NCBI GenBank assembly: GCA_003224085.1
Contig: QHYK01000057.1
Span: 1-64,000 of the forward strand
Source: Acidobacteriota bacterium
GTDB taxonomy: Bacteria > Acidobacteriota > Terriglobia > Acidiferrales > UBA7541
DNA: 64,000 nucleotides
Reading direction: 5' to 3'
Shown: one piece after another, positions 3,754 to 15,310 of the stretch
Layout: each line of letters begins with the position of its first letter
Numbering within the stretch: the first letter of the stretch is position 1
Notes under the pieces: model-generated
Databases searched by the model: none
Seen by the model: the letters and a program-made list of their open reading frames with translations, nothing else
Told to the model about the DNA's origin: nothing
Position numbers and translations under genes: made by a program

Positions 3754-4200
3754 TCAGTTTTTCGCGGCGGGCTTCTTCGTTTCGAAGCGGATTTCCTTAA
3801 GCATTTCCGACTGCCGGTAAAGCTCCGTTTTCCCCGCGGGAAATTTATTGACGCTCAGCAGGAACGCCAGAACGTCGGTGTCCTGTTCGCGCGTCAAACG
3901 GCCCGGCTTGCTTAGTGGCATGGTTTTGCGGATACGGTCGAAGAGATCTCCCAGGGTCAAGCCATTCCAGTTGGCCTGGAACACACCGCCGGTCAGCGGT
4001 GGAGCGGACTCCCCGCCCGTGAGCATGTCGCCATGGCAAGAAGCACATTCTTTGCTATAGGCCGTCTCGCCGCGCTTGGCTTGCTCTTCGGTGTAGACTC
4101 CGTCCCAGACCGAACGTGTCTCCCCCGGGGCTTGCGCTCGCAACAAGGAAAACGAAGAGACCAGTAGCGCCAGGGTTGATAGAAATAGAGCTTTTCTCAT
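3754..4200 (-). CDS. Small periplasmic c-type cytochrome
   Basis: The 148-residue protein has a signal peptide (residues 1-22, ending LLRAQ) and one haem-binding motif CASCH at about residues 52-56, with a likely distal Met in the segment KTMPLSKPGRLT. This is the standard mono-haem cytochrome c layout (cytochrome CBB3/class I-like). Its ATG overlaps the stop of the PQQ dehydrogenase gene by 4 bases, indicating translational coupling. It is therefore the probable electron acceptor of that dehydrogenase, passing electrons to the respiratory chain. Confidence 0.9.
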   Translation of the reverse strand: MRKALFLSTLALLVSSFSLLRAQAPGETRSVWDGVYTEEQAKRGETAYSKECASCHGDMLTGGESAPPLTGGVFQANWNGLTLGDLFDRIRKTMPLSKPGRLTREQDTDVLAFLLSVNKFPAGKTELYRQSEMLKEIRFETKKPAAKN

Positions 4201-6293
4201 TCGCCCGCCGACGGCAACGTGTAGGCGATGTATTCGCCGGAGTAGGGTCCGCCGCTCACGGCCACTACGATGTATTGCTTGCCGTGGATCATATAGGTCA
4301 TCGGCGAACCACTCTGGGGTCCCGGCAGGTACACCGCGCCGACTTCCTTTCCGGTGGCTTTGTCATAAGCCCGCAGCATGGCGCCACGCGGATGGTCCGC
4401 CGTCGTAGTTACCTGCGCTTCGCCCGCGATGACCAGCGTTTTCGTCACCAGCGTCCCGACATTGTAGGTCTCTTGTCCGGTCCTCGGAATGTTCATGCCC
4501 TTCAAGAGCTCTGAATTGCGAACCACGTCGGGCGTTTCTCCGTGCGCGATCTGCCAGACGATCTGACCTCTGTCGAGATTGATCGCCGTAATCGTTCCGT
4601 ACGGCGGCTTGATCAGCGGCAAACCATCTACATCCAACCGCACATACTGGCTCGCTGGCCGCTTTTTCGGAGGCTTCGCGGAATCGGCGCCTGCATTTTC
4701 TCCCGGGCCGTGCATGATTTGGACTGGTTGTCCCGCGGCGCCCGCAATGTACCGGATGTCGGAAACTTCCTTGGGCGCCTCCACCAACCCGATCGGCTCG
4801 ATGCACGAATTGCATGCATAGATATACGCCATGTGCGTTTCAGGATCGTACGACCCACCGGGCCAATTCGTGCCGCCGGAGGCTGTTCCCATCGTGAGTG
4901 TGCCGAGCGGGCCTTCGAGCTTGCTCACCGTGGGCGGCGTGAAAACGGGCCCGAGATGATATTTCGAGACGATCTCTTTCGCACGCTCGCGCATGGCGGG
5001 AGTGAAATCGATCAAGTCGTCGATAGCGACGCCATTGCGGCTGTAAGCTGGCGGTTTCGAAGGAATAGGCTGCGTCGGCGCATACCATTCGCCCGGAACG
5101 TTTCCAACCTCCACCGGTTTTTCCGGTATGGGCCAAATGGGTTTACCGCTGACGCGATCGAAAAGGTAAAGAAAACCTTGTTTCGAGGGCTGCGCGACGG
5201 CCTTCACCGGTTTCCCATCCACGGTGAGGTCCGCGAGAATCGGCGCCGAGGAAATGTCCATGTCCCAAAGCGGATGGTGCACTAATTGAAAGTGCCATTT
5301 ACGCTCGCCAGTTTTTAGATCAACGCAAACCAGCGTTTCACCGAACAAATTGTTTCCCGGCCGGTGACCACCGTAGAAATCGCTCGTTGGCGATTCCACT
5401 GGCAAATAGACGAGTCCAAGTTGCTCGTCCACGGTAATCTGCGTCCACACGCCCGTGTTGCCGGTGTATTCTGCCGAACCTTTTTCCCAAGTGTCGTAGC
5501 CAAGTTCACCTTTCTTCGGAAGGGTGTGAAAAATCCACAGGCGCTTGCCGGTGCGCACGTCGAACCCGCGCACGTAGCCTTTGTTGTTGCGCATGCTTTT
5601 CGGCGTCATGCCCTCGCGGAACGCTGCGCCAATGATGACCGTGTCTTTTGCCACCACGGGCGCCGATTGAATCCCGATTTCTCCGGTCTCCAGGTCGGGC
5701 ACCCATTCGCCGTTGTTGTTCCATGCCGAGATGGTTTGGTCATCGTCGAGCTTCAGGTCCACCATGCCGTTTTCCCCGAAAGAGGGAACTCGCGAGCCGG
5801 TCTTGGCATCCAGACAAATCAGGCGGAAACCGGGTGTCACATAAAAAATCCGTTCCTCCACGCCATCCGACCAATACGCCAATCCGCGTCCGGAAAGCTG
5901 CCGCGGAGCAGCGCCGCCGCGCTTTCCTTCGTGCTCGCCGTGAATCCAAAGCAGCTCGCCGGTTTCGGGGTCCAGCGCAATCACCGCGCGTCGCGAGCCC
6001 GCCGTCGCATAAAGAACGCCATTTACCATCAAAGGAGTTCCTTCAAGTTTGTATTCGGGCCGGTCGCCGAAATTGTCCGTCTTGATGCGCCAGGCAATCT
6101 CGAGGTCGTTGAAATTGGAAGCGTTGATTTGGTCCAGGGGTCGGTAGCGTGTGCCCCCCATGTCCGCGGCGTAGGAAGGCCACTCCGTGTCCTTCGCACG
6201 ATATTGCGCTCGAGCGGCGACCGAAAACAGCCCGAAGGCTGCAACCAAACACAGGCACGGCAGACTCCTCTCTCTCTCTTTTCTCAAACACAT
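4197..6293 (-). CDS. PQQ-dependent dehydrogenase (quinoprotein)
   Basis: The 698-residue periplasmic protein starts at an ATG preceded by AGGAG and carries a signal peptide ending VAARAQ. The mature N-terminus DTEWPSYAADMGGTRYRPLDQIN is typical of quinoprotein alcohol/glucose dehydrogenases, and propeller-blade tryptophan-docking sequences recur (for example TGKRLWIFHTLP and TGERKWHFQLVHHPLWDMD). Such enzymes oxidise alcohols or sugars using pyrroloquinoline quinone and pass electrons to cytochrome c. The coupled cytochrome gene downstream fits. Adjacent-Cys substrate-site rings of methanol dehydrogenases are not seen; a CNSC motif occurs near residue 465. The substrate is not determinable here. 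Confidence 0.92.
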   Translation of the reverse strand: MCLRKERERSLPCLCLVAAFGLFSVAARAQYRAKDTEWPSYAADMGGTRYRPLDQINASNFNDLEIAWRIKTDNFGDRPEYKLEGTPLMVNGVLYATAGSRRAVIALDPETGELLWIHGEHEGKRGGAAPRQLSGRGLAYWSDGVEERIFYVTPGFRLICLDAKTGSRVPSFGENGMVDLKLDDDQTISAWNNNGEWVPDLETGEIGIQSAPVVAKDTVIIGAAFREGMTPKSMRNNKGYVRGFDVRTGKRLWIFHTLPKKGELGYDTWEKGSAEYTGNTGVWTQITVDEQLGLVYLPVESPTSDFYGGHRPGNNLFGETLVCVDLKTGERKWHFQLVHHPLWDMDISSAPILADLTVDGKPVKAVAQPSKQGFLYLFDRVSGKPIWPIPEKPVEVGNVPGEWYAPTQPIPSKPPAYSRNGVAIDDLIDFTPAMRERAKEIVSKYHLGPVFTPPTVSKLEGPLGTLTMGTASGGTNWPGGSYDPETHMAYIYACNSCIEPIGLVEAPKEVSDIRYIAGAAGQPVQIMHGPGENAGADSAKPPKKRPASQYVRLDVDGLPLIKPPYGTITAINLDRGQIVWQIAHGETPDVVRNSELLKGMNIPRTGQETYNVGTLVTKTLVIAGEAQVTTTADHPRGAMLRAYDKATGKEVGAVYLPGPQSGSPMTYMIHGKQYIVVAVSGGPYSGEYIAYTLPSAGE

Positions 6294-6552: not shown

Positions 6553-7806
6553 ATGCCAAAACCGCTGGGTTTGAAATTCACGGTCTGCCTCACTTTGCCC
6601 GCGCTTTTTTCCACACCGGGACTTCTGGTCGCCCAAGAGCGACCCATCGTTCTGAAAGCCTCTACCGTTCTCGATGGCAAAGGCAAAGTTCTCCACAACA
6701 CCCTCATCGTCGTCAAAGGGGAAAAGATTGCGCGCATCGGAGGAGCACCACCGCAAGGAGCGGTCACTTACGATCTCACGAGCCTGACGGTTTCGCCGGG
6801 CTGGATTGACCTGCACGTTCATCCAACCTGGCATTTCGACGCCCATGGCCGCCTCGCCGGCGAAAACGAGCCCAAGGAGCAGACGGTCCTCGCCGGCGCC
6901 GCGAACAGCTGGAAGATGCTCGCTGCCGGCTTCACCACGGTGCAAAGCGTCGGCTCTCCTCTTGACAAAGACATCGGCGACGCCATCGGCGGCCTCGGAT
7001 TGCCTGGACCACGGATCCTCACGTCTCTCGACCCCATCTTCGGCCGCGGCGACTCTACCGGAACGCCCGAAGAACTTCGCGCCCTCGTTCAGCAGCACGC
7101 CCAGGAGGGCGCAGACCTCATCAAGATTTTTGCTTCCGGCAGCATCCGCGAAGGCGGCAAGCCCACGCTCTCCCAGGACCAGCTCAACGCCATTTGCGAC
7201 GAAGCGAAGAAAGTCGGCCTTCGCACGCTTGTGCACGCCTATGGTCCTTCCGTGCGCATGGCCTCGCTCGCCGGCTGCACCGAAGTCGAGCACGGCCTTT
7301 ACGCCACCGACGACGACCTGCGCTTCCTCGCTGCACAAGGCACGTACTTCGATCCACAAGCCGGGCTTGTTGTCCAGAATTATCTCGACAATAAAGCGCA
7401 CTACTTGGGCATCGGCAATTACACCGAAACCGCTTTTGAAACGATGCAGAAAGTTTTGCCCGAGTTTCAGGAACTATTCCGCCACGCGATTCGCACGCCC
7501 GGTTTAAAAGTGGTGTTCGGAACCGACGCGGTTGCCGGAGCACACGGGCGCAACGCCGAGGAGTTTCTGTATCGCGTCGAAACTTGCGGCCAAGACGCGA
7601 TGGCGGCACTTGTCTCCGCCAACTCGCTGGCCGCCGAAGCGCTCCGCATGCAAAACCGCATCGGCTCGCTCTCTCCAGGTTTCGAAGCCGACATCATCGC
7701 GCTCGACGGCGATCCGCTAAAAGACATTACCGCTGTGCGCCGCGTGGTCTTCGTGATGAAAGCCGGAAAGGTGTTCGTGAATCTGCCAACAGGGCAAAAT
7801 AAATAG
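6553..7806 (+). CDS. Secreted metal-dependent amidohydrolase
   Basis: The 417-residue protein has a signal peptide ending LLVAQ and an amidohydrolase (imidazolonepropionase/prolidase-like) TIM barrel. Visible metal and active-site motifs, in order, are DLHVHP (about residue 93), the lysine in LIKIFASGS (about 190), LVHAYG, EVEHGLYA and GTDAV (about residue 322), followed by the terminal GFEADIIALDGDPL typical of the family. It probably hydrolyses a cyclic amide or an Xaa-Pro-like dipeptide in the periplasm. It opens a five-gene same-strand run with peptide and amino-acid functions and has its own promoter upstream. Confidence 0.9.
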   Translation: MPKPLGLKFTVCLTLPALFSTPGLLVAQERPIVLKASTVLDGKGKVLHNTLIVVKGEKIARIGGAPPQGAVTYDLTSLTVSPGWIDLHVHPTWHFDAHGRLAGENEPKEQTVLAGAANSWKMLAAGFTTVQSVGSPLDKDIGDAIGGLGLPGPRILTSLDPIFGRGDSTGTPEELRALVQQHAQEGADLIKIFASGSIREGGKPTLSQDQLNAICDEAKKVGLRTLVHAYGPSVRMASLAGCTEVEHGLYATDDDLRFLAAQGTYFDPQAGLVVQNYLDNKAHYLGIGNYTETAFETMQKVLPEFQELFRHAIRTPGLKVVFGTDAVAGAHGRNAEEFLYRVETCGQDAMAALVSANSLAAEALRMQNRIGSLSPGFEADIIALDGDPLKDITAVRRVVFVMKAGKVFVNLPTGQNK

Positions 7807-9018: not shown

Positions 9019-10578
9019 ATGCCCGATTTAGCGAACGCCAATTCGAATTCCAGCCTCGATAAGGACCACCAACCCGATCGCCGGACCTTCCTTCAGGGCG
9101 CCGCCGCAGCCGCCGCGCTGACCGCCATGCCCCGCTGGGCGCATGCGTATCCCGACGACTTTGCCGCCATTGGCGCGGAAATCGAAAAGCGTCACGACGA
9201 AGCTGTCAGGCGCCTGCAAACGTGGATTCGCCAGCCCTCCATCGCCGCCGAAAATCGCGGCATGAACGAAGGTTGCGAGATGATGCAGCAGATGCTCGGC
9301 GAGGCGGGGTTCAGCGGTATCAAAAAAATGCCCACCGACGGCCAGCCCGGCGTTTTCGCCACACTCGACGCCGGGGCTTCCAAAACGCTCGGCCTTTATT
9401 TCATGTACGACGTAAAACAAGCCGACCCCGCCGAATGGTCTTCCCCGCCATTCGAGGCTGCCCTCGTTGACAAGCCTGGCCTCGGAAAAATCATCCTGGG
9501 TCGTGGCGCGGTCAACCAGAAAGGTCCCGAAGCAACTTTCCTCGCCGCTCTGCACGCGATTCGCGGCTCAGGAAGGAAAATGCCCGTCAACCTCGCTTTC
9601 GTCGCCGAAGGCGAAGAAGAAATCGGCTCGCCGCATTTTCCGCAGGTCGTTCACCAGCCCGAAGTGATGGCCGCGCTCAAGAAATGTGTTGGAATTTTCA
9701 TGCCTCAGGCGTCCCAGGGCCTCGATGGCCAGGTGACCATGACGCTCGGCGCCAAGGGCGTCATCGAATGCGAACTGACCTCCAGCGGCGAGCGCTGGGG
9801 CCGCGGCCCGCGCAAGGACGTGCATTCGAGCAACAAAGCGCGCCTCGACAGTCCTGCCTGGCATCTCCTCGAGGCCCTCGCCTCGCTGGTCTCTCCCGAC
9901 GGCAACGATCCGGCCATCGAAAATTACACCGCGAAAGCTCGCCCGCTTTCCGACGCCGAAAAGAAAATGATCGCCGATGCGGCGAAGCGCCTAAATGAAG
10001 CGGACGCGAAAAAACTCCTTGGCGTCGAGCGCTGGGTGCATGATGCGAGCTGGGAGCAAGCGCTCGAACTCCTCATTTCGCGACCCACCGTCAACATCGA
10101 AGGTCTGGTCGGCGGCTACACCGGTCCCGGCGGAAAAACGATTCTTCCCAGCAAAGCGGTGGCCAAGCTCGACCTCCGGCTCGTTCCCGACATGACTGCG
10201 GCTGAATCCCTCCAGCTCCTCCGCGCGCACCTTGCCAGGAAAGGCTTCGGCGACATGGAGGTGAACATGACCGGCGGCTACGATCCCACTTCCACGCCTG
10301 CCGATTCCTTGCTGATCCGCGTGGAAAGCGCTGTTTATCGCCGAAGCGGCATCGATCCCGTCCTTTTGCCGCGCAACGCCGGCTCCTGGCCCGGCTATGT
10401 CTTCACCGGCGATCCTCTCCGCTTGCCCGCTGGACACTTCGGGCTCGGCCATGGCAGCGGCGCGCATGCACCGGACGAGTATTACGTCATCGAATCCAGC
10501 AATCCCAGAGTGCAAGGCATGAACGGCGCCGTGCTCTCCCACGTGGAATATCTCTACGAACTGGCGCAAGCAAGCTAA
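9019..10578 (+). CDS. M20/M28-clan metallopeptidase-like protein with altered metal ligands
   Basis: I start at the ATG preceded by GGAGG, giving 519 residues; an open frame extends further upstream but overlaps the previous gene. A twin-arginine-like signal (DRRTFLQGAAAAAAL, about residues 20-35) suggests Tat export. The M20 order is recognisable: FMYDVKQADPAEW (residue 128 on), GRGAVNQKG (about 162), AEGEEEIGSP (about 200), a dimerisation domain, then GAHAPDEY (His near 483). Compared with the canonical HYDVQP and GRGAxDxKG, the first metal-ligand His is Met129 and the bridging Asp is Asn166. It may be a divergent or inactive peptidase clade. The neighbours suggest peptide or amino-acid use. 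Confidence 0.88.
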   Translation: MPDLANANSNSSLDKDHQPDRRTFLQGAAAAAALTAMPRWAHAYPDDFAAIGAEIEKRHDEAVRRLQTWIRQPSIAAENRGMNEGCEMMQQMLGEAGFSGIKKMPTDGQPGVFATLDAGASKTLGLYFMYDVKQADPAEWSSPPFEAALVDKPGLGKIILGRGAVNQKGPEATFLAALHAIRGSGRKMPVNLAFVAEGEEEIGSPHFPQVVHQPEVMAALKKCVGIFMPQASQGLDGQVTMTLGAKGVIECELTSSGERWGRGPRKDVHSSNKARLDSPAWHLLEALASLVSPDGNDPAIENYTAKARPLSDAEKKMIADAAKRLNEADAKKLLGVERWVHDASWEQALELLISRPTVNIEGLVGGYTGPGGKTILPSKAVAKLDLRLVPDMTAAESLQLLRAHLARKGFGDMEVNMTGGYDPTSTPADSLLIRVESAVYRRSGIDPVLLPRNAGSWPGYVFTGDPLRLPAGHFGLGHGSGAHAPDEYYVIESSNPRVQGMNGAVLSHVEYLYELAQAS

Positions 10579-10598: not shown

Positions 10599-11975
10599 GT
10601 GACTCCGCCACAAAACCCCCGTCCACCGTCTTCGCCCAGCAGTGGCCTCGCGCGCCATCTCGGCCTTTTCGGCACCACCATGGCCGTGATGGGCGGCATC
10701 ATCGGCGCTGGAATTTTCATTAATCCGTATCTCGTCGCCGAACGCGTGCACACTGCGTTCCTCATCCTGTCCGCTTGGATTGCGGGTGGCCTCCTTGCGC
10801 TCCTTGGGGGCTTTATCTACGCCGAACTCGCCGCCCGCTTGCCCGTCGTCGGCGGCCAGTACGCTTATCTGCGCGAAGCGCTCCATCCCGGCGTCGCGTT
10901 CCTTTATGGCTGGGTGCTGCTCCTGGTCATCCAAACCGGCGGAATGGCTGCCGTGGCCGTCACGTTCGCCCGCTATTTTCTCGAACTAACGCACTGGCCC
11001 GTCAACGATTCCCTCATCGCCTCCTCAGCTCTCGCGCTTCTCACCGCCATCAACTGTCTCGGCGTCCGCGCGGGCAGCCGTGTGCAATCCGCCATGACGC
11101 TCACGGCCATCGCCGCTATCGCCGTGCTCGAACTTTTTAGCTTACTCCGCGGCGGCCCGTCGCAAATTTCTTTTCGGCCGCTCCTCGCCCACCGGCCTTC
11201 CCTGAACCTGGCTCTGGCCTTCGGCTCCGCGATGACACCTGTCCTTTTTGCCTACGGCGGCTGGCAGACCTCCAGCTTCCTTGGCGGCGAAGTCCGCGAC
11301 CCGCGCAAAACTCTTCCTCGCGGCCTTGTCCTTGGCGTTCTGGGCGTCATTGCCGTCTACACGTCTGTGAATTTCGTTTATGTCCGCGCGCTCGGCCCCG
11401 CCGGACTCGCCGTCACAACCACACCGGCCTCCGCCGTCATGCGGGCAGCCCTCGGTCCTCGCGGCGGAGCACTCATTGCCGCGGGCATTGCCTTTTCTGC
11501 CTTCGGCTTTCTTGCCCAATCCATGCTGACCGCTCCTCGCGTCTATTTCGCCATGGCCGAAGACCGCGTCTTCTTTCGCACCGTCGGCTGGGTCCATCCC
11601 CGCACACGCGTCCCGGTGATCGCCATCGCGCTGCAGGGCCTCTGGGCCGTCGTCATCGCCCTCACGGGAACCTACTCCCAAGTCGTCAACTATGTCGTTG
11701 CGATGGACTCCATTTTCTTTGGCTTGACCGGCGTCTGCCTCTTCCTGCTTCGTCACCGCGACGGCAAAGCCTCTTCTCCTTCTGCGGCTATCGACTACCG
11801 CGTTTCCGGCCATCCTTGGACCACGCTGCTTTTCATCGCCGCGGAATGGCTCGTGGTCGTGAGCACGTTCGGGCGCGATCCTCGCCGCTCTTTCATTGGC
11901 CTTGGCATTGCTCTTGCCGGTTTGCCCGTATACTTCTTCTGGCGCGCAAAAAGCCCGGAGGCCACGGCTGAATGA
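10599..11975 (+). CDS. APC-superfamily amino acid permease
   Basis: The 458-residue protein starts at GTG and has about twelve hydrophobic segments. The first, LFGTTMAVMGGIIGAGIFIN (residues about 24-43), is the characteristic APC/LAT helix-1 motif with the GAGIF substrate-binding break, and later GGWQTSSFLGGEVRDPRKTLPR matches the conserved loop after helix 6. It would import amino acids or exchange them across the cytoplasmic membrane. It lies 20 bases after the M20-like gene and overlaps the aminotransferase by 4 bases, so it likely supplies amino acids to that enzyme. Confidence 0.92.
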   Translation: MTPPQNPRPPSSPSSGLARHLGLFGTTMAVMGGIIGAGIFINPYLVAERVHTAFLILSAWIAGGLLALLGGFIYAELAARLPVVGGQYAYLREALHPGVAFLYGWVLLLVIQTGGMAAVAVTFARYFLELTHWPVNDSLIASSALALLTAINCLGVRAGSRVQSAMTLTAIAAIAVLELFSLLRGGPSQISFRPLLAHRPSLNLALAFGSAMTPVLFAYGGWQTSSFLGGEVRDPRKTLPRGLVLGVLGVIAVYTSVNFVYVRALGPAGLAVTTTPASAVMRAALGPRGGALIAAGIAFSAFGFLAQSMLTAPRVYFAMAEDRVFFRTVGWVHPRTRVPVIAIALQGLWAVVIALTGTYSQVVNYVVAMDSIFFGLTGVCLFLLRHRDGKASSPSAAIDYRVSGHPWTTLLFIAAEWLVVVSTFGRDPRRSFIGLGIALAGLPVYFFWRAKSPEATAE

Positions 11976-13093
11976 GCAGTTCCGCTGGCACGAAACGTTC
12001 GCTCTACATGGAATGGGCCAAGACGTGTTCCCACGCCAAATATAGTCTCGCCACCAGCGGCCTCACCGGCGTTCCCGGCGACGAATTTCCCATCAACCTC
12101 GACGAACTCGAGATCACCGCTCCCGGCGCTTACGGCTACGGGCCGCTTCAACAGCGCCTCGCGCAGCACACCGGCGTTCCGCAAGAATGCATCGTCGCCG
12201 CTGCCGGAACTTCCATGGCCAATCATCTCGCCATGGCCGCCGTCCTTGATCCCGGCGACGAGGTGCTCCTCGAGCAGCCCGCCTACGGCCCGCTTCTCGA
12301 CGTCGCCAACTATCTTGGCGCGCGCGTGAAGCGCCTTCCGCGCCGCTTCGAATCGCGCTTCGTGGTGAACTTGGACGAACTCCAGCGCGCCATCACCACC
12401 TCGACGCGCCTCGTCGTGCTCACCAATCTGCACAATCCCAGCGGCGCGCTTCTCTCCGCGGAAATGGTCGGCGCCATCGGTAAGCTGGCTCTTCGCGCGG
12501 GCGTGCGCGTTCTGATGGACGAGGTCTATCTCGAGATGCTTTTTGGGAAGCCCGCTCCCTTTTGCTTTCCCATCGGAAATGGAATCGCTTCCGCAAAGGA
12601 GAATCCTTTTATCGTCACGAGCAGTCTTACGAAAGTGTATGGCCTAAGCGGCCTGCGCTGCGGCTGGATCCTCGCTGCTCCCGAGCTCGCCCGCCGCATG
12701 TGGCTACTCAATGATTTATTTTCAGCTACGGCCGCGCACCCCGCCGAGCGCCTCTCCGTGATGGCCCTGGACCATCTCGAACAATTCCGCGAACGCTCCC
12801 GAGCGCTGCTCGCCGCCAATCGCGCCTTGCTCGATTCGTTCCTCGACTCCCGCTGCGACCTCGAATGTTTTCGCCCTCCGGCCGGCACGGTGGTTTTCCC
12901 GCGCCTCCCTCATGGCCGTGATCCGGAAGCCTTTTTCAAATTGCTCCGCGAAAAATACGAAACCACCGTCGTCCCCGGCAGTTTCTTCGAAATGCCTCGC
13001 CACTTTCGCATTGGCATCGGCGGCGACACGGGTACCCTTCGCGCCGGCCTCGAACGCCTCAGCGCCGCCCTCGACGCCTTCGCCAAGCAGTGA
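11972..13093 (+). CDS. PLP-dependent aminotransferase, class I/II
   Basis: The 373-residue enzyme has the fold-type I signature: the substrate-side YGYGPLQQRLA segment, TNLHNPSGALL (Asn and Pro contacting the ring), MDEVYLE (Asp pairing with the pyridine nitrogen) and SSLTKVYGLSGLRCGW with the probable Schiff-base Lys221. It resembles the AspC/ARO8-like group that acts on amino acids in the cytoplasm. Its ATGA start overlaps the permease stop. The donor amino acid cannot be deduced. It ends the five-gene run; the next coding sign is a remnant on the other strand. Confidence 0.9.
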   Translation: MSSSAGTKRSLYMEWAKTCSHAKYSLATSGLTGVPGDEFPINLDELEITAPGAYGYGPLQQRLAQHTGVPQECIVAAAGTSMANHLAMAAVLDPGDEVLLEQPAYGPLLDVANYLGARVKRLPRRFESRFVVNLDELQRAITTSTRLVVLTNLHNPSGALLSAEMVGAIGKLALRAGVRVLMDEVYLEMLFGKPAPFCFPIGNGIASAKENPFIVTSSLTKVYGLSGLRCGWILAAPELARRMWLLNDLFSATAAHPAERLSVMALDHLEQFRERSRALLAANRALLDSFLDSRCDLECFRPPAGTVVFPRLPHGRDPEAFFKLLREKYETTVVPGSFFEMPRHFRIGIGGDTGTLRAGLERLSAALDAFAKQ

Positions 13094-14629: not shown

Positions 14630-15310
14630 GATTGACGACTCCCCTAAAGGCGGGGGATTCCTCGGAGTTACTATGCGACATGGCCACCTACCTCCGACGA
14701 TGTTTCCTGCTTCCCGGGCACACGCCTAAACTCGCGTTTAGGTCCTACCGTGCGTCCACAGGCTAATACCGAGCGTCCCTCGGCTAAGATTCTCAAACCT
14801 TCGACGAAAATGTTTACGACGGCATTCTCGTCCCGCTGATGTTCGGTATGGCAACTCGAACACGTCCAACGGTCTTGGAGTTTGAGGTCTACCTTCTTTT
14901 GGTGACAAATGCAGCACAACTTTGAGCCAGTTGAGTGCTCAATTTCTGAAGAAAATCCGTGCGCAGATCGGTTGCTCGCTGACAAATATGAGCCACCCTG
15001 CTACGCGCCTTCTCGCGGTTCTTAGAACCCCGCTCACAACGGCTCAAACGGCTTTTGGGCGGTGCGGAGCTTTGACAGTGCCGCCAGCCAAGGACGAGGC
15101 AACCACACCTGAGACCACCTTCTTCCATTGAAGAAGTTGAACGTCTTGGTGTTCATGTCCACCGATAGGCGATGGCTCGCGGGGCCTACAACAGGCAACG
15201 GCTGCTCTACTTGGAACGAAACATAATATCGGCCTGCAGGCCTCATGCTCAGCACAACCGAGGATGGCTCGCCGCCGTCACACAAGTGGCTGTGCGCTTC
15301 GAGCGACACG
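14630..15310 (-). mobile_element. Decayed IS200/IS605-type element (TnpB, right end retained)
   Basis: The element consists of a broken tnpB (14671-15309) followed on the minus strand by a right-end-like segment at 14630-14665. That segment has a run of C, GCCTTTA, then a run of G and GAGTCGTCAA, which matches the hairpin and TCAA-type ends common at tnpB 3' ends, where the guide RNA (reRNA/omegaRNA) is encoded. The hairpin is partly eroded (CCCC/GGGG only). No TnpA transposase and no recognisable left end are visible. Confidence 0.65.
14671..15309 (-). pseudogene. TnpB (IS605 OrfB) RNA-guided nuclease, frameshifted remnant
   Basis: Three overlapping minus-strand frames carry successive TnpB pieces. 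Frame one (15309-15034) contains PAGRYYVSFQVE followed by LSVDMNTKTFNFFNGR, in place of the usual VGIDLGLKxF RuvC-I motif. Frame two (from about 15075 to 14950) carries RCERGSKNREKARSRVA and TDFLQKLSTQLAQ, the long helical bridge. Frame three (14985-14671) carries the zinc ribbon CCICH...CSSCH and the RDENAVVNI end. The N-terminal 150 or so residues are lost and at least two frameshifts are present, so no active nuclease is made. Confidence 0.8.

Follow-up and report, generated by a model that had tools for sequence, protein, structure and literature searches.

Organisation of the locus and predicted product of P0001

The stretch of DNA analysed here, to which we refer as the window, covers 64,000 nucleotides of contig QHYK01000057.1 from an Acidobacteriota bacterium. 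At positions 9019–10578 of its forward strand lies the gene P0001, which encodes an M20-fold protein of 519 amino acids, followed by a stop codon, with an export signal. The gene belongs to a same-strand run, with gaps of at most 80 bases, composed of an Xaa-Pro-dipeptidase-like amidohydrolase (6553–7806, forward strand; 213.5 bits, below the curated cut-off of 500), a BNR/YCF48-like beta-propeller protein recognised by Pfam directly upstream of P0001 (7814–8938, forward strand), P0001 itself and, as judged from domain matches, an amino acid permease of the APC family (10599–11975, forward strand) and a PLP-dependent aminotransferase (11972–13093, forward strand). Further along, on the reverse strand, an open reading frame of 104 amino acids (14674–14985) matches the Cas12f1-like TNB domain (PF07282, 7.1e-8); this would make it a probable TnpB gene fragment of the IS605 type.

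The original prediction described P0001 as a Tat-exported protein of 519 residues. The open reading frame is as proposed, and a twin-arginine signal was found by Pfam at residues 19–38 (9073–9132, forward strand; PF10518, 1.3e-5, 25.3 bits against a cut-off of 22.7), so that P0001 is predicted to be exported by the Tat pathway. Homology to the M20 family spans both the catalytic domain (Peptidase_M20, PF01546, 1.1e-12, 48.7 bits, cut-off 24.6) and the dimerisation domain (M20_dimer, PF07687, 3.3e-9, 37.1 bits, cut-off 21), each above its Pfam cut-off. The AF2 model of the protein (mean pLDDT 87.4, pTM 0.84) gave two lists of structural matches, both headed by M20 structures, the best match being 4mmo (Z 41.0, rmsd 2.5, 433 residues), with 2zof at Z 37.7, rmsd 2.6 and 452 residues. 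Since the model is confident and its best matches are M20 enzymes with the two-domain fold, the scaffold of P0001 is the usual M20 one.

By sequence, the closest relatives of known structure are Sso-CP2, the M20 metallo-carboxypeptidase of Sulfolobus solfataricus (4mmo, 5.3e-48), the streptococcal M20 peptidase 2pok, DUG1 and the carnosinases. Sso-CP2 shares with P0001 the two-domain fold, the Asp of the HxD motif, the Glu pair, the HSS of the lid and the last His; it differs in keeping His and Asp at the positions of Met129 and Asn166, and in having a Glu near the position of the third ligand. The dipeptidases carnosinase CN2 and DUG1 (2zof, 4g1p) resemble P0001 in fold, lid domain and catalytic Glu. 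The nearest NCBIfam model, PRK06446 (NF005034), was matched by all 53 members of A1 at 1e-20 or better, and P0001, the one protein for which the cut-off comparison was made, scored 215.3 bits against a cut-off of 369.

Metal-site and catalytic residues

To read the active site, P0001 was aligned by phmmer to carnosinase CN2, whose residues are numbered here by our own count from the chain offset. CN2 binds two metals through five ligands, His99, the bridging Asp132, Glu167, Asp195 and His445, with Glu166 as the catalytic residue; one metal is held by His99, Asp132 and Asp195, the other by Asp132, Glu167 and His445 (PMC6271292). The counterparts of Asp131, Glu200 and His269 of P0001 are named catalytic in M20 enzymes (PMC11511702, PMC6271292).

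It had been proposed that two metal ligands are replaced in P0001, Met standing for the first-metal His and Asn for the bridging Asp. Both replacements are real: Met129 (9403–9405, forward strand, as are all codons given below) is encoded by ATG and falls on CN2 His99, and Asn166 (9514–9516), encoded by AAC, falls on the bridging Asp132. The count of two was, however, too low. At the position of the third ligand, CN2 Asp195, P0001 has the residues MPQA (228–231; 9700–9711, the column being uncertain by about one residue), where canonical rows of the alignment have SDT or ADG; the acid is absent, and this ligand is therefore also missing. Segment 228–231 is free of Asp, Glu, His and Cys in 104 of the 107 altered rows of the close set described below, the exceptions being L092, L109 and L111.

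The residues of the Glu pair and the last His are kept, as had been proposed: Glu200, the general base in M20 enzymes (CN2 Glu166), and Glu201, a metal ligand (CN2 Glu167), at 9616–9621, and the metal ligand His483 (CN2 His445) at 10465–10467. Also retained are the catalytic Asp131 of the HxD motif (CN2 Asp101; 9409–9411) and His269 of the lid domain (9823–9825), so that both catalytic acids and the lid His are all present in P0001. Three of the five metal ligands of CN2, namely His99, Asp132 and Asp195, thus have no counterpart, and Glu201 and His483 are the only ones left. Following the grouping of the ligands in CN2, one metal would be without any protein ligand, and the other would lose the bridge and keep two.

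Three further positions deserve mention. Gln233 (9715–9717) occurs in all 107 altered rows of the close set, the 19 canonical rows having Met or Val. His478, in a GHGxGAH motif (10450–10452), is mostly Pro in canonical rows; judging from the alignment, it is a possible candidate for a new metal ligand. Arg387 (10177–10179) is conserved in canonical and altered rows alike and may have a role towards the substrate.

Fixation of the altered site in close relatives

Scanning genome contigs yielded 143 relatives, of which 80, with identities of 60–86%, were kept; their records are named for Acidobacteria, Gemmatimonadetes, Verrucomicrobia, Chloroflexi, Eisenbacteria, Deltaproteobacteria, Rudaea, Dokdonella and Luteimonas, among others. 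All 80 carry Met129, Asp131, Asn166, Glu200, Glu201, His269 and His483. Strains identified by name among the carriers of a relative include Rudaea cellulosilytica DSM 22992 and Dokdonella immobilis CGMCC 1.7659. Of 396 genomes sampled from the phylum, 28 had P0001-like genes (E <= 1e-80), as did 22 of 41 relatives. Among eight farther members, at about 41–45% identity, Met was found in all eight and Asn in all seven that could be read at that position.

The close set used for column counts comprised 126 rows, from which identical copies were excluded; it includes some fragments and two entries for the window's gene (P0001 and L081). The genome of the window also has a canonical paralogue, L082. 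Position 129 is Met in 107 rows and His in 19; position 166 is Asn in every readable altered row (106/106) and Asp in every canonical one (19/19). Asp131, Glu200, Glu201 and His269 are identical across the whole set (126/126), as is His483 in every row with a letter there. Gln233 is accompanied by Lys246 in all 107 altered rows, neither occurring in any of the canonical ones, and His478 was read in 101 of 104 lettered altered rows.

Pairwise dN/dS values ranged from 0.017 to 0.118 (16 pairs), which indicates that the altered protein is maintained under purifying selection. The suggestion that P0001 is unlikely to be a random pseudogene is borne out by these values and by the occurrence of Met with Asn in all of the kept relatives. 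A reading in which the source genome carries a local mutation, a decaying gene or an assembly error was ruled out on the same grounds, the residues being identical in the 80 relatives and dN/dS lying well below 1; nothing but the unusual residues themselves speaks for it, and we regard its chance as negligible. Moreover, the alignment of homologues that had been put forward as a check gave the same answer, as the neighbour-sharing relatives L001, L003 and L004 carry Met and Asn, not His and Asp.

A wider branch of altered proteins

A wider set was assembled by a profile search further out and from 40 more stretches of DNA. It contains 185 rows from loci picked by hand, hence a non-random sample, with open reading frames shorter than 380 amino acids excluded (L189 is therefore absent) and the window's gene again present twice (P0001 and L113). 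All four canonical residues at positions 129, 166, 201 and 483 were found in 38 rows, and the remaining 147 are altered. In the altered rows, with counts dominated by the close set, Asp131 is present in 146 of 146 lettered rows, Glu200 in 144 of 147, His269 in 146 of 147, Glu201 in 141 of 147 and His483 in 140 of 144 lettered rows. Across the wider branch, conservation of His478 breaks down (119 of 144 lettered altered rows). The replacements met in the branch include Gln or Asn at position 129, Lys or Ala at 166, Gln, Ile or Leu at 201 and Phe or Tyr at 483. Nine rows from the two sets, plasmid rows included, have lost Glu201 (to Gln, Ile, Leu, Ala or Gly); Asp131 is kept in all nine and Glu200 in six, the other three having Asp (L186, L188) or Arg (L187).

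Beyond the relatives of P0001, three groups of altered proteins could be told apart. The first consists of proteins with the motifs YW[MQ]YDTMP, GRGATNSKGP and EGDEE, and with signals that, by eye, look like those of lipoproteins. The second (L184, L185, L187 and L192) has Asn129, Asp, Gln or Glu at 166, Gln201 and Phe or Tyr at 483, giving the states NDQF, NQQY and NEQF; within this group, the catalytic Glu200 is replaced by Arg in L187. The third is the pair L186 and L188, which keeps His129 and has Asn166, Asp200 and Ala or Gly at 201 (HNAH and HNGH).

Genes of the lipoprotein type were repeatedly seen in more than one copy. Tandem copies number three in genome G147 and two each in G191, G333 and G112; G061 has two in tandem and another about 8 kb away, and G261 has two copies separated by about 5 kb. 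In the tandems of two or three such genes at loci L172, L173, L174, L175 and L211, residue 129 is Met or Gln and residue 166 is Asn, as they are at L176, whose two copies are likewise about 5 kb apart. An Allosphingosinicella record (L073) holds two altered M20-like genes as neighbours.

To place these groups, unrooted trees were computed on thinned sets, with canonical rows drawn from genomes of the same phylum and from two plasmids. In a tree of 45 rows from which the replaced-ligand columns were omitted, altered and canonical rows were split with support of 100/100. In a tree of 53 rows, all altered groups except the HNAH/HNGH pair fell on one side of a branch (100/100); the altered label requires two changes, and this pair sits with the canonical row L207, which suggests a second, independent loss of ligands. 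When plasmid rows were added and L207 was excluded (52 rows, 36 of them altered), the altered rows again lay on one side of a branch (100/99). The altered proteins thus form, in these sequence trees, a deep branch set apart with full support from the sampled canonical M20 rows. As DapE, CPG2, PepV and M28 were left outside, the trees do not give the point at which the branch attaches within the whole of M20. The loss of ligands would be the derived state, because the ligands are common to M20 and M28 (PMC6271292). The idea of a divergent M20 clade therefore holds, and the branch is wider than proposed. Queried with P0001, L213, L214 and L216, the solved structures returned 4mmo and 2pok as best matches, and for these four proteins none closer came up that would lie inside the altered branch.

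Members on plasmids

A search of plasmid proteins returned 54 matching records; of seven that were read, five are altered and two canonical. The member on a plasmid of Gemmatirosa kalamazoonensis KBS708 is 60% identical to P0001 and has the Met/Asn pair, and that of Cytobacillus oceanisediminis, a member of the Bacillota, also has Met/Asn. Two haloarchaeal members (L213 and L215) have Met129, Lys166 and Ile or Leu at 201, where the Lys in place of the bridging Asp might stand in for the charge of the metal. A Bosea member has His129, Ala166 and Leu201. The four altered members that carry an annotation are all named M20/M25/M40 family metallo-hydrolase.

The Cytobacillus gene (L214) lies amid oligopeptide ABC transporter genes and three genes of the M14 or succinylglutamate-desuccinylase type, and the Bosea gene (L216) is the last in a run of ABC transporter genes. 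One haloarchaeal gene is found downstream of an M32 carboxypeptidase and an aminotransferase, the other downstream of ABC transporter genes of the sugar type.

Genomic context and export signals in the relatives

The loci of 105 relatives were scanned for up to four genes per side, a rough script serving to call the open reading frames. Many contigs end sooner, so that the counts are lower bounds; neighbours were named mostly by resemblance to proteins of the window. A beta-propeller-like gene lies directly upstream in at least 12 of the 105 loci, and other recurring neighbours are an ABC ATPase (at least 11), a PQQ dehydrogenase (at least 9), a 735-amino-acid protein of no assigned identity (at least 9) and an amidohydrolase (at least 8). 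In the window itself, a PQQ-dependent dehydrogenase beta-propeller (4197–6293, reverse strand; PF01011, 2.2e-176) is divergent from the P0001 run, and it is this gene that has a similar one near at least 9 of the 105 relatives. At five loci named for Gemmatimonadetes (L013, L017, L019, L022 and L023) a SusC-type gene is near the altered gene, with Pfam read for L023 and L019 only, and a SusD-type gene is also near the first four of them, where Pfam was read for L019.

The gene run of the window is common to close relatives only; elsewhere we found SusC/SusD-type genes, Vps10-type propellers or unrelated genes. Within four genes per side at the 105 loci, a conserved operon naming a substrate was not found, and none of the neighbours examined that would name one is common to the family. 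The neighbourhood of P0001 hints loosely at the use of peptides or amino acids and at no particular substrate. The peptide-use operon of the original prediction thus remains plausible in the window, but it does not extend to the family as a whole.

A crude rule assigned Tat-like signals to 75 of 106 altered rows, passing over some signals that to the eye look Tat-like; the remaining 31 fail the rule, some being Sec- or lipoprotein-like and others free of any signal. Tat export was considered as a clue to a cofactor and set aside as weak.

Interpretation of the altered site

In P0001 and its close relatives, all three protein ligands of one metal, the bridging Asp included, are replaced, and the replacement is fixed under purifying selection; Glu201 and His483 of the other metal, and the catalytic Asp131, Glu200 and His269, are retained. 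Judged by the roles of the ligands (PMC6271292, PMC4012986), a centre without the first His, the bridging Asp and the third Asp would be deprived of one metal and hold the other more weakly, which would make the standard di-metal hydroxide mechanism very unlikely. The finding is larger than first described, in that three ligands are lost and the branch is deep and widespread.

Two readings deserve most weight. On one, to which we would give an even chance on the sequence data, the two-metal centre was taken apart and the cleft given a new use, the handling of peptides or acyl-amino acids with at most one metal. The lid would close on a small peptide or an N-acyl amino acid outside the cytoplasm, and the chemistry would be carried out by Glu200 and Asp131, with one metal at most, bound where Glu201 and His483 survive and with Asn166 or the new His478 perhaps completing the site, and not by the standard di-metal hydroxide. 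On the other, quite possible though we would put it somewhat short of even, catalysis is lost altogether and the M20 cleft binds peptides or a partner, for instance in scavenging or in delivery for uptake. Such a pseudopeptidase is in keeping with the loss of three of five metal ligands and with the transporter genes near some relatives (SusC/SusD-type at the five Gemmatimonadetes-named loci, oligopeptide ABC at L214 and ABC at L216), but no uptake gene was found to be common to the family among the 105 loci. Its best evidence is the NDQF-type group of the same branch, in which nearly all ligands are gone and the fold persists: neither Glu201 nor His483 is left in these proteins, Glu200 is gone as well in L187, and such losses suit a binder better than a repurposed enzyme. 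The pair L186 and L188 also counts against a repurposed enzyme, having kept the first His and yet changed to Asp200 and Ala or Gly at 201, and Glu200 and Glu201 could have been conserved for structural reasons. Further points against it are that Met with Asn makes a poor Zn or Mn site, that His478 varies in the wider branch and that no family-wide neighbour at the loci examined names a substrate. On the other side, Asp131, Glu200 and the lid His269 are present in nearly all altered rows, more than would be expected had catalysis been lost; their retention argues that a substrate still sits in the cleft, and for this reason we favour the repurposed active site over a pure binder.

Other explanations fare worse. 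That P0001 is an ordinary di-metal hydrolase, which tolerates Met and Asn or has rebuilt both sites from His478, Gln233 and Lys246, accords with the unchanged overall fold and with these three residues being new and conserved in the close set. Among the altered rows of that set that can be read, however, none has the bridging carboxylate, and the remaining ligands are also lost in some members of the branch, so that we consider this improbable. Less probable still is an exported copper or soft-metal protein in which Met129, His478 and His483 would form a Met/His2 site for redox or metal binding. All three residues hardly vary across the close set, and Tat-like signals are frequent among the altered rows, but position 129 is Gln or Asn elsewhere in the branch and some of the 31 rows failing the Tat rule are plainly Sec-like.

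Relation to known systems and significance

The single-metal M20 enzyme 5-nitroanthranilate aminohydrolase (5k8m–5k8p) is among the structural matches of P0001, at only 13–16% identity; no literature on it was found in the open-licence papers searched. The pseudometallopeptidase Ebp1, of family M24, is a metallopeptidase relative that keeps two of five metal ligands (PMC11266112). P0001 likewise keeps two of five, but it belongs to another family and, unlike Ebp1, retains the catalytic Asp and Glu. In the searched text of that 2024 review of pseudometallopeptidases, 'M20' occurs only within two reference DOIs, and the metal ligands of M20 have been called strictly conserved (PMC4012986). Among the matches listed by title and start of abstract in the open-licence literature, M20 proteins with replaced metal ligands did not appear, which does not prove that they have not been described.

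More tentatively than for P0001 itself, the branch as a whole may consist of M20-fold enzymes of bacteria and haloarchaea that act without a two-metal centre, by chemistry based on Glu200 and Asp131 with one metal or none, in several types of site and with some genes in tandem. A branch that lacks the metal ligands but mostly has the catalytic Glu and Asp shows, as a natural experiment, how metals can be lost from a metallohydrolase, and its graded site states (at positions 129, 166, 201 and 483: canonical HDEH, MNEH, QNEH, the haloarchaeal Met-Lys-Ile/Leu, and NDQF) lend themselves to comparison. The automatic naming of such genes as 'metallo-hydrolase' is unsafe. If our reading is true, a classic family of metallohydrolases would have in this branch a counterpart poor in metal or free of it, masked by the annotation 'M20/M25/M40 family metallo-hydrolase'.
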